From: Cycloclasticus sp.
GTDB taxonomy: Bacteria; Pseudomonadota; Gammaproteobacteria; Methylococcales; Cycloclasticaceae
DNA: 64,000 bases
Direction: 5' to 3'
NCBI GenBank assembly: GCA_002733135.1
Contig: NVUJ01000002.1
Span: 124,001 to 188,000 of the forward strand
Below, piece by piece: positions 46,456 to 55,016 of the stretch. The stretch's first letter is position 1; every line of letters begins with the position of its first letter. Both the position numbers and the translations under genes were made by a program. The notes under the pieces are model-generated. The model saw only the letters and a list, made by a program, of their open reading frames with translations. It did not search any database and was not told the DNA's origin.

Positions 46456-46494
46456 ATGAACAGACAATTTTCCATTGCGCCAATGATGGACTAG
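46456..46494 (+). pseudogene. Stranded original 5' end of dusA (MNRQFSIAPMMD-stop)
   Basis: ATG AAC AGA CAA TTT TCC ATT GCG CCA ATG ATG GAC TAG; SIAPMMD is identical to the live DusA N-terminus (SIAPMMDWTD, 49180 ff). Confidence 0.8.
46471..46490 (+). repeat. Distal attachment-site copy (att core) of the dusA island
   Basis: TCCATTGCGCCAATGATGGA, exact 20-bp direct repeat of 49182-49201; similarity continues (CTAGACAGAC vs TTGGACTGAC). Confidence 0.85.
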
Positions 46495-46630
46495 ACAGAC
46501 TGCTTTAATTAAGCTTTCGTTTTCAATGTCTTAGCTCAACTACAAGAAAAAATGACGCGAATAGGCGTACTAGATTGTTACATAACCGTCGCATCAACCT
46601 GAATTAAAAGCTATTCCGGTTATGCTTTTT

Positions 46631-46637
46631 GTTAGCT
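46631..46637 (+). other. Predicted left boundary of cassette 1 (G^TTAGCT)
   Basis: GTTAGCT is the exact reverse complement of the R''-like box AGCTAAC (47691-47697), as expected for a cassette whose circular form rebuilds its attC. Confidence 0.55.
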
Positions 46638-46716
46638 GTAACTGAAGTTCTGGAGTATTTGGCCGAAAACAACTATACTCTGATTAAAATAACAATAGTT
46701 AACCTAAGGAAAAACA

Positions 46717-47184
46717 ATGACTTACAAAGCAATCGATATCGCAAATTGGTTTATTAGTCAATTCGACAAAGAATCAGGCGATGTAATCACTCATCTAAAG
46801 GTTCAAAAACTTCTATACTTTTCAGAGGCTTGGAGCCAAGTTCTGCTTGAAAAGGAATTGTTTCCCGAAGAAATGGAAGCATGGACTCATGGCCCTGTTG
46901 TAAGAGAAGTCTTTAATCAATTTAATAGCGCAGGCTGGCAGCCACTCAATGTTACCGAAGAAATAGTTAAATTTGATCAAGATGTTTCTAATGTGCTTTT
47001 ACAGGTATTGGAAGCTTACGGGGACATTTCAGCAAAGACACTTGAAGAAATGACTCATCAAGATCGGCCATGGAAAGATGCAAGAGGTTCTTTGCCGCTT
47101 GAGGCTAGATGTTCTGATATTATTAGCAAAAACTCTATTAAAGTATATTTCACCGAGAAATATAACGAAGCATTAAATGCCTAA
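46717..47184 (+). CDS. Panacea-domain (DUF4065, SocA/GepA-like) protein, probable antitoxin
   Basis: AIDIANWFISQFDKESGDVITHLKVQKLLYFSEAWSQVLLEKELFPEEMEAWTHGPVVREVFNQF; the KLQKLLYF...EAWxxGPV pattern is typical of DUF4065. Confidence 0.9.
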   Translation: MTYKAIDIANWFISQFDKESGDVITHLKVQKLLYFSEAWSQVLLEKELFPEEMEAWTHGPVVREVFNQFNSAGWQPLNVTEEIVKFDQDVSNVLLQVLEAYGDISAKTLEEMTHQDRPWKDARGSLPLEARCSDIISKNSIKVYFTEKYNEALNA

Positions 47185-47689
47185 AAATGCAAAAAAACGT
47201 CTTCCAAAAAATGCGATTAAAAATGAAGCTTCAGACTTATCTGTAAGAGCAAACCTTAAAGAAGTTAAAATAATAGGGCTAATTGCTAAAGAAATACAAG
47301 AAAACTCAACTCCTCTTAAATTGAATCCATATGTAGCACTGAAATATTATAAAAGCGATTGGCAGTGCTTCTCTGAATGGGAGTCTCAAGAGCTTAAAGA
47401 GTTTTCATCCTTCCTTAAAATACTCCAAAAACATAATTGGGAACAAGTATATAATACTGGTAGTAAAATTCCGAAACATGGGTTGGCGTATACTAAATAT
47501 GAAATTAATGACGTGAATTCAGAAGCTATTAGAAATAAACTAGCATTAGTAAAAAAGGAAATATCTGAAGACATTAATTTTTTTGAATTAAGAGTTAATC
47601 AAAATAAATTGAGAGTTCATGGGTTTCAATCTCAATCTGTATTTTTTCTAGTGGTTTTAGATAGAAATCACGAAGCATTTCCAATGTAA
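47177..47689 (+). CDS. Uncharacterised 170-aa protein, candidate toxin partner of the Panacea antitoxin
   Basis: Overlaps the Panacea gene by 8 bp; C-terminus FFELRVNQNKLRVHGFQSQSVFFLVVLDRNHEAFPM is loosely reminiscent of RelE-type beta-sheet cores. Confidence 0.6.
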   Translation: MPKNAKKRLPKNAIKNEASDLSVRANLKEVKIIGLIAKEIQENSTPLKLNPYVALKYYKSDWQCFSEWESQELKEFSSFLKILQKHNWEQVYNTGSKIPKHGLAYTKYEINDVNSEAIRNKLALVKKEISEDINFFELRVNQNKLRVHGFQSQSVFFLVVLDRNHEAFPM

Positions 47690-47690
47690 C

Positions 47691-47789
47691 AGCTAACAAG
47701 ACACATCCAACGGATCGCCATCAGCGTCACTTGTTTTGCTGTCGCAAAAACGCGCCACTGCTGTCAACCGCTGATGTGCGACGTTAGGC
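47691..47789 (+). repeat. attC-like recombination site of cassette 1 (about 99 bp)
   Basis: R'' AGCTAAC (47691-47697), L'' CACATC (47702-47707), L' GATGTG (47773-47778), R' GTTAGGC (47783-47789; matches GTTRRRY). Apical hairpin GCGT..TTTTGC-TGTC-GCAAAA-ACGC (47724-47753). Confidence 0.85.
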
Positions 47790-48257
47790 TGCCGCAGTAG
47801 CCCATCCATTTTTAGTTTCTTCTAGCTTCATACCATTAGAATAGGTATCTCTATTGAATTGGCCTAGCCCCTCAATCAGGCTGCGAACAGGAGAGTTATC
47901 TGTGGCATATTCATGGTAAAGCATTCTGAGTACACGCTCTGCTGGCTTAGTAATTTTTACTCTATGGTTCTCCCACCCTCTAACTGAATTTTCACTAACT
48001 CCCAACAAATCTGCCAATTGAGATTGAGGCATATCTAGTTCTTTACGTAAAAAACGAATTTCAGCTCCGCTAAGTTGAGGTTTGTTTTTAACTAGGTTTA
48101 AACCAATAGCCTTATGCAAACCATCAACATTATGAATGGCTACACCTTGACCATAAGAAGTTTCTTTAATGTTATAGCCATTACGAAGCCATATTTTGCG
48201 TAAACCACAGCTTGTGTAATGGTACATTTTCTCTTTTTTCATAGGGCTATGCTCCAA
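47784..48257 (-). CDS. HTH (XRE/HigA/MqsA-like) antitoxin
   Basis: LSGAEIRFLRKELDMPQSQLADLLGVSENSVRGWENHRVKITKPAERVLRMLYHEY; overlaps the DUF4258 gene by 11 bp. Stop codon coincides with the TTA of the cassette boundary. Internal starts at 48242 and 48227 are possible. Confidence 0.88.
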   Translation of the reverse strand: MEHSPMKKEKMYHYTSCGLRKIWLRNGYNIKETSYGQGVAIHNVDGLHKAIGLNLVKNKPQLSGAEIRFLRKELDMPQSQLADLLGVSENSVRGWENHRVKITKPAERVLRMLYHEYATDNSPVRSLIEGLGQFNRDTYSNGMKLEETKNGWATAAA

Positions 48258-48573
48258 AGACTGTAATAATTACAACAAAATTTCCTAATTCATCTTTTTC
48301 TAAAGCAGTAACGACTGCAATTATTTCTCCAGCAGACATTACCTCTATTTTCATTTCCATATTACCTTTAATGCTGAGAGCAGGACCCTCCACAATATGA
48401 CCATGAGTTAAGCATTTAAGAACTTGAGTTCTAGTGATTTTTCTAGTGCACATGCGTTTTTCAGCATGCTTAGTGAAAATAACCCTAGAACTATCCTTAG
48501 CTATTTTCTTTATGAGGTTTTTAGCCATCATAGGGGTAATATTGAAATCAATTATATTAGACTCTCTAGCCAA
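48247..48573 (-). CDS. DUF4258-domain protein, probable toxin
   Basis: SSRVIFTKHAEKRMCTRKITRTQVLKCLTHGHIVEGP...MKIEVMSAGEIIAVVTALEKDELGNFVVIITVF; upstream of and overlapping the HTH partner. Confidence 0.85.
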   Translation of the reverse strand: MARESNIIDFNITPMMAKNLIKKIAKDSSRVIFTKHAEKRMCTRKITRTQVLKCLTHGHIVEGPALSIKGNMEMKIEVMSAGEIIAVVTALEKDELGNFVVIITVFGA

Positions 48574-48733
48574 GCTTTATATCTCATGCTATCGTCATAT
48601 ACCGTTAATTATTGACGGTTTGAATGGAATATTCAAGTAATATTTTACTATTTAACTTGTTAGATGGTGATGAAAGGACTAATGAAAAGGCATAACTATA
48701 TTAAGAAAAACAGTATGTTATGGGTGGTTTTCA

Positions 48734-48759
48734 GCCTAACAAGACGCATCAAGTTGGGC
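48734..48759 (+). repeat. Partial attC-like site (R''-L'' half) at the right end of cassette 2
   Basis: GCCTAACAAGACGCATCAAG; GCCTAAC is the reverse complement of GTTAGGC at the cassette 2 start, and CTAACAAGACGCATC matches cassette 1 CTAACAAGACACATC at 14 of 15 positions. No matching 3' arm seen. Confidence 0.65.
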
Positions 48760-49047
48760 AATGTCACTATCCTTCAGTCGCAATAAATCGTATCGCTTAG
48801 ACCTTCCGGTTTTAAATTTATCTAAGTATTCAGCAATCAAATCACTAATGAATACCGGCTCAGACCTGCCGAAGACTTGCGATTCATGCAATTGCGCTTC
48901 ACGTTTACCAGCCCATGACTTAGCTAATTTATGTTGACGAAACGATTTGCTTTCTCGATGAACAATAACACCTTTTTGTTTAATCAAGATCTCAACGCGA
49001 TATGATACGCTACCGTTTTTTAGACGGCGGGTACGAATAGTAGCCAT
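48736..49047 (-). pseudogene. Truncated dusA-type tyrosine recombinase (integrase), N-terminal part only
   Basis: MATIRTRRLKNGSVSYRVEILIKQKGVIVHRESKSFRQHKLAKSWAGKREAQL...LIAEYLDKF...LRLKDSDIAQLDASC*; catalytic domain absent; adjacent to dusA. The listed ORF extends to 49101. Confidence 0.78.
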
Positions 49048-49121
49048 TTCTCTCCTTATGTAGTACGCCTTTTTTTTGGTAACGCAAATGGGCGTATTCA
49101 TAATGTATTAAACGACAAGAT

Positions 49122-50129
49122 ATGACGGTAAGTAAACAACAAGAATCCTTTAAAACAAAGGGAAAGCCTATAGGTACGCTATCCATTGCGCCAATGATGG
49201 ATTGGACTGACAAGCATTGCCGAGTTTTTCATCGTTTATTGTCGCCAAATGCATTGCTGTATACCGAAATGATCACGACGGGTGCGTTGAAGCATGGCGA
49301 TAAAGAGCGGTTTTTATCATTTAATGAAATTGAACAACCTCTCGCTTTGCAGTTAGGCGGCAGTAACCCAGCAGATATGGCGACATGCGCCGAACTTGCT
49401 GAGCATGCCGGCTTCAAAGAGGTGAATATTAATGTGGGTTGCCCAAGCGATCGTGTGCAAAATGGTCGTTTTGGAGCATGTTTAATGTCCGAGCCCGCGT
49501 TGGTTGCTGAGTGTGTTTCCGCTATGCTTGAAAAGGTTTCGATACCGATAACCATCAAAACTAGAACAGGGATTGATGACTTTGATTCGCAAGCGTTTTT
49601 GGTGGATTTCGTGGGCAAGACTGCCGAAGTAGGTTGTCGCACGTTTATAATCCATGCGCGAAAAGCAATTTTAAAAGGCTTGTCACCGAAAGAAAATAGA
49701 ACAATACCTGAACTTAATTACGATCGCGCATACACCGTTAAGAAGGAGTTCCCTGATTTAACCGTCATAGTAAATGGTGGGGTTAAGACGGTGGGTGATA
49801 TAGAACGACATTGGCAACATGTGGATGGTGTGATGATTGGGCGTGAGGCCTATCACAACCCATTCTTTTTAGCAGAAGCGGAACATCACCTTTTTTCACA
49901 ACCGTTAGTGGACAGAGTCGAGGTGTTGAATAATTATCTGCCCTATGTTGAAAGCGAATTGAGCAAAGGCGTGTCGTTGCAAAGTATTTCTAGGCACCTG
50001 TTAGGCTTATTTGCCGGACAGCCGATGGGTAAACATTGGCGCCGTTATTTAAGCGAGAATGCGCGTTTTAAACACTCTGGAACAGAGGTGTTATTAGCCG
50101 CCTTAGAGCAGATGAAACCTTACCAATAA
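49122..50129 (+). CDS. dusA: tRNA-dihydrouridine(20/20a) synthase DusA
   Basis: LSIAPMMDWTDKHCRVFHRLLSPNALLYTEMITTGA; NVGCPSDRVQNGRFGACLM; FIIHARKAILKGLSPKENR; VNGGV; DGVMIGREAYHNP. Confidence 0.96.
   Translation: MTVSKQQESFKTKGKPIGTLSIAPMMDWTDKHCRVFHRLLSPNALLYTEMITTGALKHGDKERFLSFNEIEQPLALQLGGSNPADMATCAELAEHAGFKEVNINVGCPSDRVQNGRFGACLMSEPALVAECVSAMLEKVSIPITIKTRTGIDDFDSQAFLVDFVGKTAEVGCRTFIIHARKAILKGLSPKENRTIPELNYDRAYTVKKEFPDLTVIVNGGVKTVGDIERHWQHVDGVMIGREAYHNPFFLAEAEHHLFSQPLVDRVEVLNNYLPYVESELSKGVSLQSISRHLLGLFAGQPMGKHWRRYLSENARFKHSGTEVLLAALEQMKPYQ
49182..49201 (+). repeat. dusA-proximal attachment-site copy inside the dusA ORF
   Basis: TCCATTGCGCCAATGATGGA, exact match to 46471-46490. Confidence 0.85.
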
Positions 50130-53162: not shown

Positions 53163-55016
53163 ATGAAGAAGTTAGATAAAGCAAAAGCGCAACATATCTT
53201 AATCATTGAACATGACGAAGATCGTATGTCGGCACTCCAAAACCTTTTGTCAATTGGTGGTTATAGGAATTTAATTAGTGCGTCGAATCAGGACGAAGCA
53301 CATACACTTATCCGTTCGTTAAAAGCTAAGGTTGAAAAGATTGGCGCCATTTTATTGGCATTTGATTTGCCACAATGCGATATCTTTAAATTCAGTGAAG
53401 TGTTAACAACGTTGGATGGTCATGATGCCATTCCATTAATATTCTTAACGGATAAATCGACAAGAATTGATGAAGAATTGATGACGAGATGTCATCGTGC
53501 CAATGCGGCGACTATAATACATCAGCCTGTCGAAGGTGGTGATGTTGTGCCCATCATTGATTTAGCACTCGCGCTTAAAAGCGAACGTGATGATCGTATA
53601 GCGAATGAAGAAAAACTAGTGCGAGAGCTTTCAGAAAAACGAATTATGGAGGCTAGATTGCAGTACCTAGTCTCGCACGATGAATTAACTGGCCTGTCGA
53701 ATAGAAGCGGTCTTGAGAAAACGTTGGAATTTGCGATTTTAAGCTGTACCAACTTTAAACAACGCGGCGCATTGCTAGATATTGATTTAGACCAGTTTCA
53801 GGTGGTTAATGATATCGAAGGTCACGCGATAGGCGACCGTTTATTGATTGAAATAGCGTCATTAATTCAAAAGACCTTAGAAGAAGATGCTTTTGTTTCT
53901 CGTGTGGGCTCAAATTTATTTCAAGTTTTTCTGAGCAAAGTAACGCAAAATCAAGCGTTAGATATTGCAGAACACCTAAGGTTAACGATTGATGATTTTG
54001 ATTTTAAACCGAATGACACGGTATATAACGTTTCGGCAAGTATTGGGGTGGCGATTTTAGCGCCACTTGAACGGATTAAACAACCTAGTGAAATCATGTC
54101 ACGAGCACATCATGCCTGTTATACAGCTAAGACCTTAGGACGAAACAGGATTAGTTTATTCGAAGGTGATAATGATCATCTTACAGGTTTAAGAAATGAT
54201 GCGAAGTGGGTGCCATTAATACGCAAAGCGTTAAAAGAAGACGCTTTTCAATTGGTTTTCCAACCCGTTGTGCAAATATCAGATGGTTACGTTGCACATT
54301 ATGAAACATTACTAAGAATGGTTGGTGAGGGCGGTGAGCTGATAAGCCCAATGGATTTCATTCCTGTAGCGGAACGTATGGGTCTTATCCATCATATTGA
54401 CTTGTGGGTTGTCTCACACGCAATTGATTATATTTCGGCGTTGCCTAAAGAAAGTGAAAGCATTGCTTTCACAATAAATTTATCTAGTCACGCACTGCAA
54501 GGTGATTACTTATTACCAATATTGAAGCAAAAATTAGAAACCACGTGGATTTCACCGTCAAGAATAACGTTCGAAATTACAGAAACCGCGGCCGTTATAG
54601 ATTTCGAAAAAACGCGCAAGATGGTAACTAAGATTCGTGCATTAGGATGCCGGTTCGCTCTTGATGATTTTGGGGCGGGCTTTAGTTTGTTTAATTACAT
54701 TAAAAACTTCCCCGTTGACTATTTGAAAATTGATGGCCAATTTATCAATAACCTAGCAAATAATACATCTGACCAAGTGTTGGTTAAATCAATGATAGAT
54801 GTTGCGCATAGCTTGGGTAAAAAAGCTATTGCGGAATACGTGTCCGACCCTGAAATTTTAAATATATTAAAAGAGTTTGGTGTTGATTATGTTCAAGGGT
54901 TCTTGTTAGGGAAGCCGCAAATAGAATTATTAAACGAGCAATATATCGTCTTGAGTGATTTTAAAAGCGACCCCGTTGATATTAAAAAATTAATCACTAA
55001 AAAAAGCTATTTATGA
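53163..55016 (+). CDS. Receiver-like / GGDEF / EAL protein with degenerate REC and GGDEF domains
   Basis: REC-like N-terminus; LVSHDELTGLSNRSGL...RVGSNLFQVFL (degenerate GGDEF); YETLLRM, LDDFGAGFSLFNYIKNFPVDYLKIDGQF, QGFLLGKP (EAL). Confidence 0.92.
   Translation: MKKLDKAKAQHILIIEHDEDRMSALQNLLSIGGYRNLISASNQDEAHTLIRSLKAKVEKIGAILLAFDLPQCDIFKFSEVLTTLDGHDAIPLIFLTDKSTRIDEELMTRCHRANAATIIHQPVEGGDVVPIIDLALALKSERDDRIANEEKLVRELSEKRIMEARLQYLVSHDELTGLSNRSGLEKTLEFAILSCTNFKQRGALLDIDLDQFQVVNDIEGHAIGDRLLIEIASLIQKTLEEDAFVSRVGSNLFQVFLSKVTQNQALDIAEHLRLTIDDFDFKPNDTVYNVSASIGVAILAPLERIKQPSEIMSRAHHACYTAKTLGRNRISLFEGDNDHLTGLRNDAKWVPLIRKALKEDAFQLVFQPVVQISDGYVAHYETLLRMVGEGGELISPMDFIPVAERMGLIHHIDLWVVSHAIDYISALPKESESIAFTINLSSHALQGDYLLPILKQKLETTWISPSRITFEITETAAVIDFEKTRKMVTKIRALGCRFALDDFGAGFSLFNYIKNFPVDYLKIDGQFINNLANNTSDQVLVKSMIDVAHSLGKKAIAEYVSDPEILNILKEFGVDYVQGFLLGKPQIELLNEQYIVLSDFKSDPVDIKKLITKKSYL

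Follow-up and report, generated by a model that had tools for sequence, protein, structure and literature searches.

Two overlapping genes, panA and panT, lie between a pair of exact direct repeats at the dus gene of Cycloclasticus sp., in a window of 64,000 nucleotides (assembly GCA_002733135.1, contig NVUJ01000002.1, positions 124,001 to 188,000). The features of this region, given in window coordinates, are as follows:

46457-46495, + strand: displaced 5' end of the native dus gene, forming the left boundary; reads MNRQFSIAPMMD and then a stop codon, where sister genomes read MNRQLSVAPMMDWTD
46471-46489, + strand: left attachment repeat TCCATTGCGCCAATGATGG, an exact 19-nt direct repeat with 49182-49200
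46631-46636, + strand: 5' core GTTAGC of cassette 1, seen in the sequence; the cassette begins past the G, at 46632
46632-47783, + strand: integron cassette 1 (panAT), its ends set by the attC core sites
46717-47184, + strand: panA, predicted Panacea/SocA-domain antitoxin of 155 aa, ATG start
47177-47689, + strand: panT, putative toxin of the MAG6450 family, 170 aa, ATG start, conserved domain at about residues 48-170
47692-47789, + strand: attC of cassette 1, with R'' GCTAAC at 47692-47697 and R' GTTAGGC at 47783-47789
47784-48257, - strand: MqsA-like helix-turn-helix (HTH) protein of cassette 2, 157 aa (HTH_3 1.9e-6; phrog_5119 1.6e-45); an internal ATG may be the true start
48247-48573, - strand: DUF4258 protein of cassette 2, a putative toxin of 108 aa (PF14076, 44.2 bits against a cut-off of 25)
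48734-48750, + strand: R'' arm GCCTAAC and truncated attC start of cassette 2, where CTAACAAGACRCATC is repeated (at 47693 and 48736)
48751-49047, - strand: N-terminal remnant of a phage or island integrase, found by tblastn; also matches phrog_22184 (4.5e-14)
49182-49200, + strand: right attachment repeat TCCATTGCGCCAATGATGG, an exact 19-nt repeat inside dus (49122-50129)

An earlier note on this DNA had described two ORFs at 46717-47184 and 47177-47689, the first encoding a DUF4065/Panacea protein. Both sets of coordinates were confirmed, as was the 8-nt overlap between the 3' end of panA and the 5' end of panT, visible in the sequence and in the ORF list, and the C-terminus quoted for the 170-aa partner proved exact. 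PanA matches PF13274 (Panacea, DUF4065) with 65.2 bits (E = 1.3e-17; cut-off 25.7), in agreement with the earlier assignment, and also phrog_1281 (1.5e-45); it is the sole Panacea match within the genome assembly.

The same note had proposed a Panacea toxin-antitoxin (TA) pair, and had named partner homologues mostly lacking a Panacea neighbour as the observation that would speak against it. Homologue searches were made without Panacea as a condition and returned 26 distinct loci matching over the toxin domain, at each of which the neighbouring ORFs were scanned with PanA of 46717-47184; L003 and L004 were excluded, their matches spanning residues 25-84 only and containing in-frame stops. In 24 of the 26, the PanT homologue is immediately preceded by a Panacea gene in the same orientation. 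Because this linkage recurs across independent loci, 46717-47689 very probably encodes a PanA-PanT pair, a proposal to which the domain match and the gene overlap also lend weight. The panA-panT order is kept in unrelated species at toxin identities of 53-76%, a group made up of Candidatus Parabeggiatoa (two), a Chromatiaceae MAG, Thiomargarita nelsonii and a Methylobacter MAG. A Pontibacter plasmid is also among the loci carrying both genes, as are genomes of the same phylum, with identities in the alignment falling as low as 13-20%. At one locus (L027), a single PanT homologue is flanked by two or three Panacea genes. Searches of phage records for relatives, and of plasmids with the cassette 1 nucleotide sequence, gave no match.

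The two exceptions (L099 and L104) encode a toxin-like protein of about 105 aa after a different small protein with, at most, a weak resemblance to DUF2080, and the same gene arrangement is shared by three plasmids (L107-L109). Across these five loci the two genes form a conserved pair, a protein of about 95 aa with the toxin-like protein of about 105 aa, present in genomes and on Burkholderia, Alicyclobacillus and Geminocystis plasmids. The tested members of the latter protein had no match in Pfam or NCBIfam.

The toxin had been called poorly characterised, which holds with respect to Pfam, where PanT has no family match, and to the PDB, where a sequence search found no significant relative. 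PanT nevertheless falls in the MAG6450 family, passing the cut-off of NCBIfam NF046006 (45.3 bits against 40), a model also hit by all 10 members of alignment A1, and it aligns to the C-terminal portion of NsnC from the Menshen system. It also matches phrog_8366 (5.9e-15); matches to RT_II-A and Csx19 were weak and were set aside. The MAG6450 family takes its name from a Mycoplasma agalactiae gene and has no assigned function; proteins termed 'ps3' may be Panacea-like. MAG6450 itself is listed as a conserved hypothetical protein, and MAG6440, a nearby locus, as 'putative prophage protein ps3' (PMC3179502). Two residues, W88 and G149, never vary across 22 PanT homologues; 21 of these keep D162, H101, R146 and H165 are each kept by 18, and 16 keep R139.

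The alignment of PanT with the PADLOC profile of NsnC (PDLC03891) covers positions 191-279 (E = 9.8e-8), the overall resemblance lying at about residues 184-284 of the profile, and the same end of the profile is matched by five of eight further PanT-family members tested (E <= 0.01). Six NsnC-like proteins match the profile over positions 1-164 only and adjoin a large ATPase-like gene; their C-termini are not recognised by the PanT profile, and no NsnC carrying exactly a PanT-type domain was seen among the proteins examined. These profile matches would suit an NsnC built of two parts, the C-terminal one being exchangeable, and so would the words 'domain polymorphism' in the title of a Menshen paper. 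We tentatively suggest that the MAG6450/NsnC-C domain may be a growth-arrest effector that is swapped between three or more settings, namely Panacea TA pairs, the small TA-like pairs with an unrelated upstream protein at L099, L104 and L107-L109, and Menshen NsnC, such that the panAT cassette would be a standalone, integron-mobile counterpart of the Menshen effector with Panacea replacing NsnA/NsnB sensing. If so, one uncharacterised domain would connect a TA toxin family with the domain that delivers the output of phage defence by Menshen, and a two-gene toxicity assay could reveal the function of Menshen NsnC.

As to how PanT might act, a RelE-like toxin had been offered in the earlier note as a guess, which gained an indirect link and failed to gain a direct one. 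Gp49 and YafQ are regarded as families of the RelE superfamily. In hhalign profile-profile comparisons, the PanT family aligns with a bridging family of toxin-like proteins of about 105 aa (96.3%, E = 1.6e-9), and this bridging family aligns with Gp49 (42.4%, score 28.1, 68 columns), whereas 40 column-shuffled controls reach 16.3 at most. The PanT profile compared directly with Gp49 (0.3%) or YafQ (0.1%) scores at noise level, and direct membership of PanT in RelE, YafQ or Gp49 was rejected in the absence of a Pfam or profile match. Since Gp49 compared with YafQ also scores as noise, this missing direct match is weak evidence. The structure prediction and fold search suggested for 47177-47689 were both run: AlphaFold, with six close sequences, returned a pLDDT of 43.6 for whole PanT and 52.4 for residues 48-170, both too poor for use, and the low-confidence model of the latter has the order helix-helix-strand-helix-strand-strand-strand, which is compatible with RelE. 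Foldseek with this same model (pLDDT 52.4) gave no match at E <= 0.001, only uninformative matches at E > 1, which were discarded.

If the pair is taken to be a TA system, we narrowly favour RelE-like RNA cleavage as the activity of PanT; it is the best guess because the bridging family joins PanT and, more weakly, Gp49/HigB-type RelE proteins. The strongest competing explanation is a genuine PanAT pair whose MAG6450/NsnC-C domain would adopt a separate, non-RelE effector fold, such as that of a DNase or NTP-modifying enzyme. PanT's lack of a direct match to any RelE-superfamily profile and its low-confidence models speak for this explanation, but the alignment of the bridging family with Gp49, above all 40 shuffled controls, argues against it, and the noise-level score between Gp49 and YafQ weakens its first point; we consider it a real though lesser possibility.

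The setting of the pair, an integron cassette within a dus island, is an addition to what the earlier note had described. At 46632-47783 we found pairing R'' and R' cores, a bottom-strand hairpin and cores that match the cassette ends. The bottom strand of 47693-47790 folds as a single hairpin of -21.4 kcal/mol (z = -2.79), equalled by 1 of 200 shuffles. R'' of cassette 1 pairs with the cassette's own 5' core, the surrounding 5' core region pairing with 47686-47706 at 81% over 21 nt (inverted repeat I1), and R' pairs with R'' of cassette 2 (inverted repeat I2). From this architecture we infer that panAT may be mobile as a cassette, in which case Panacea modules would join the cargo moved by integron cassettes. 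A full-text literature search for integron and Panacea together, with poor coverage of subscription papers, found no paper. The sequence carrying the panAT homologue of the Chromatiaceae MAG (L022; 1327 bp, coverage 306) has GCCTAAC...GTTAGGC after position 1148, with a long inverted repeat, in a form that resembles an attC.

Cassette 2 carries its HTH and DUF4258 genes (47784-48573) in reverse orientation to the attC, and these probably form a second TA-like pair. The HTH protein scores 45.3 bits against the MqsA family model TIGR03830, under the cut-off of 61.8, and has relatives on Acinetobacter, Skermanella, Endozoicomonas and Pseudoalteromonas plasmid records. The shared attC start, CTAACAAGACRCATC or as a motif TAACAAGNCNCATC, has only two matches in the genome assembly, at 47693 and 48736. 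At the second of these the attC of cassette 2 ends after about 17 nt and is directly followed by integrase coding sequence, an attC/integrase junction (48734-48760) that likely arose from deletion or illegitimate recombination.

On the other side of panAT, a further attC ahead of cassette 1 was weighed and rejected: the folding of 46530-46637 does not surpass that of shuffled sequences (z = -0.73), so the stretch could be attI-like or simply island DNA. The stretch of about 130 nt from the left attachment repeat to cassette 1 (46501-46630) is not attC-like in folding and could be an attI remnant. Neither an integron integrase nor an attI was recognised between the island ends.

Both cassettes lie in an insert with a GC content of 0.33-0.39, against about 0.43 around it. 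The right repeat encodes SIAPMMDW in dus, and the SxAPMMxW motif is also present in sister dus genes; in sister genomes dus begins with MNRQLSVAPMMDWTD, and in two of these (L013 and L017) dus follows shortly after the end of oadB with no insert. By tblastn, 48736-49047 is 38-46% identical to phage proteins, several of them annotated as integrases (for example 44%, E = 1e-18). Islands specific to dusA integrate at dus and replace its 5' end with island sequence (PMC4482086), and two of the features that mark them are present here: direct repeats of the attachment site near the 5' end of dus, and a displaced native start. Because of the TCCATTGCGCCAATGATGG repeats, the displaced MNRQFSIAPMMD start and the insert-free sister genomes, we conclude from sequence comparison that an element inserted itself into dus and supplied a new 5' end in place of the old, and that 46471-49200 is a decayed 2.7-kb genomic island interrupting this tRNA-modification gene, with a stub of its integrase left. 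The present 5' end of dus (49122-49181) is island-derived. Elsewhere in the window, ARAGORN called a tRNA-Phe of 99 nt with anticodon aaa at 53998-54096 on the - strand, inside a long ORF, which is probably spurious.

Decay of the island raises the question of whether panAT is itself a remnant, with intact ORFs whose expression or function has been lost in a dead element. The truncation of both the integrase and the second attC is consistent with this, as is the lack of a convincing sigma-70 promoter in a search upstream of panA, which weighs little; TA cassettes in chromosomal integrons normally have their own promoters (PMC11023631). Against it, panA and panT are full length, an AGGA-type ribosome-binding site lies 5' of panA, and other genera carry intact close homologues (67-76% toxin identity), so that we regard loss of function as unlikely.

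Taken together, we are fairly confident in a type II-like PanAT operon, with the antitoxin first and a MAG6450-family toxin likely to act by RelE-superfamily RNA cleavage, carried as an integron cassette in the decayed dus island. PanA would be translated first and would bind PanT, keeping it inactive, in line with the direct complexes by which PanA-PanT pairs bind and neutralise (PMC8832971). Loss or alteration of PanA, whether by antitoxin decay or through a phage cue sensed by Panacea, would free PanT and growth would stop; a sensor role for Panacea is the hypothesis of its authors (PMC10440598). The MAG6450-family effector domain of PanT would then act, most plausibly through RelE-superfamily RNA cleavage, with R139, R146 and H165 as candidate active-site residues. 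Toxicity of PanT, its neutralisation by PanA and its RNase activity are predicted properties, and 8 of 25 predicted PanTs were non-toxic in E. coli (PMC8832971). Were PanT toxic, it might select for retention of the island DNA, a role that we put forward by inference only. We find it very improbable that PanA acts as in the type VI SocA/SocB system, as a proteolytic adaptor delivering PanT to ClpXP instead of a stoichiometric blocker: the SocA equivalog profile NF047745 does align over PanA residues 7-145, but at 63.8 bits against a cut-off of 190, and the Panacea pairs of PMC8832971 work by direct complex formation. With that score so far under the cut-off, PanA is assigned to Panacea and not to SocA proper.

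Placed beside known systems, the type II-like PanAT operon shares features with several. With the dusA-associated islands (PMC4482086), the locus shares the conserved 5' part of dus as the site, a short direct repeat, a displaced 5' end and a putative integrase remnant beside dus; it differs in that it spans only about 2.7 kb, its integrase is truncated and its cargo consists of integron cassettes. In Menshen, an anti-phage system, the third protein is NsnC; PanT resembles its C-terminal part but lacks the NsnC N-terminal region and stands alone beside Panacea. NsnA and NsnB, and with them the three-gene NsnA-NsnB-NsnC operon, are absent from the locus, where the neighbours are oadB, a 231-aa ORF, the HTH/DUF4258 pair, the integrase stub and dus. 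RelE/ParE/HigB toxins (Gp49, YafQ), to which the bridging family joins PanT, have an order of secondary structure similar to that of the low-confidence PanT model, and the C-terminal pattern ElRi...R...(H), whereas PanT has a longer N-terminus, an extra predicted helix and no significant direct profile match. There is also a likeness to the PanAT systems of Kurata et al. (2022, PMC8832971; 2023, PMC10440598), in which a Panacea gene likewise lies upstream of, and overlaps, a small toxin gene across distant taxa. The PanAT survey, as far as its available text goes, gives 88 predicted toxin clusters, and its confirmed PanTs are of the toxSAS, MazF-like, Fic/Doc, membrane or cyclase types, none described as MAG6450-like (PMC8832971). 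By its sequence, panAT is a well-supported and fairly ordinary system of this already known type, and the present analysis assigns its toxin to the MAG6450 family, likens that toxin to NsnC, ties it indirectly to RelE-like toxins through the bridging family, and recognises the operon as an integron cassette within an island in dus.
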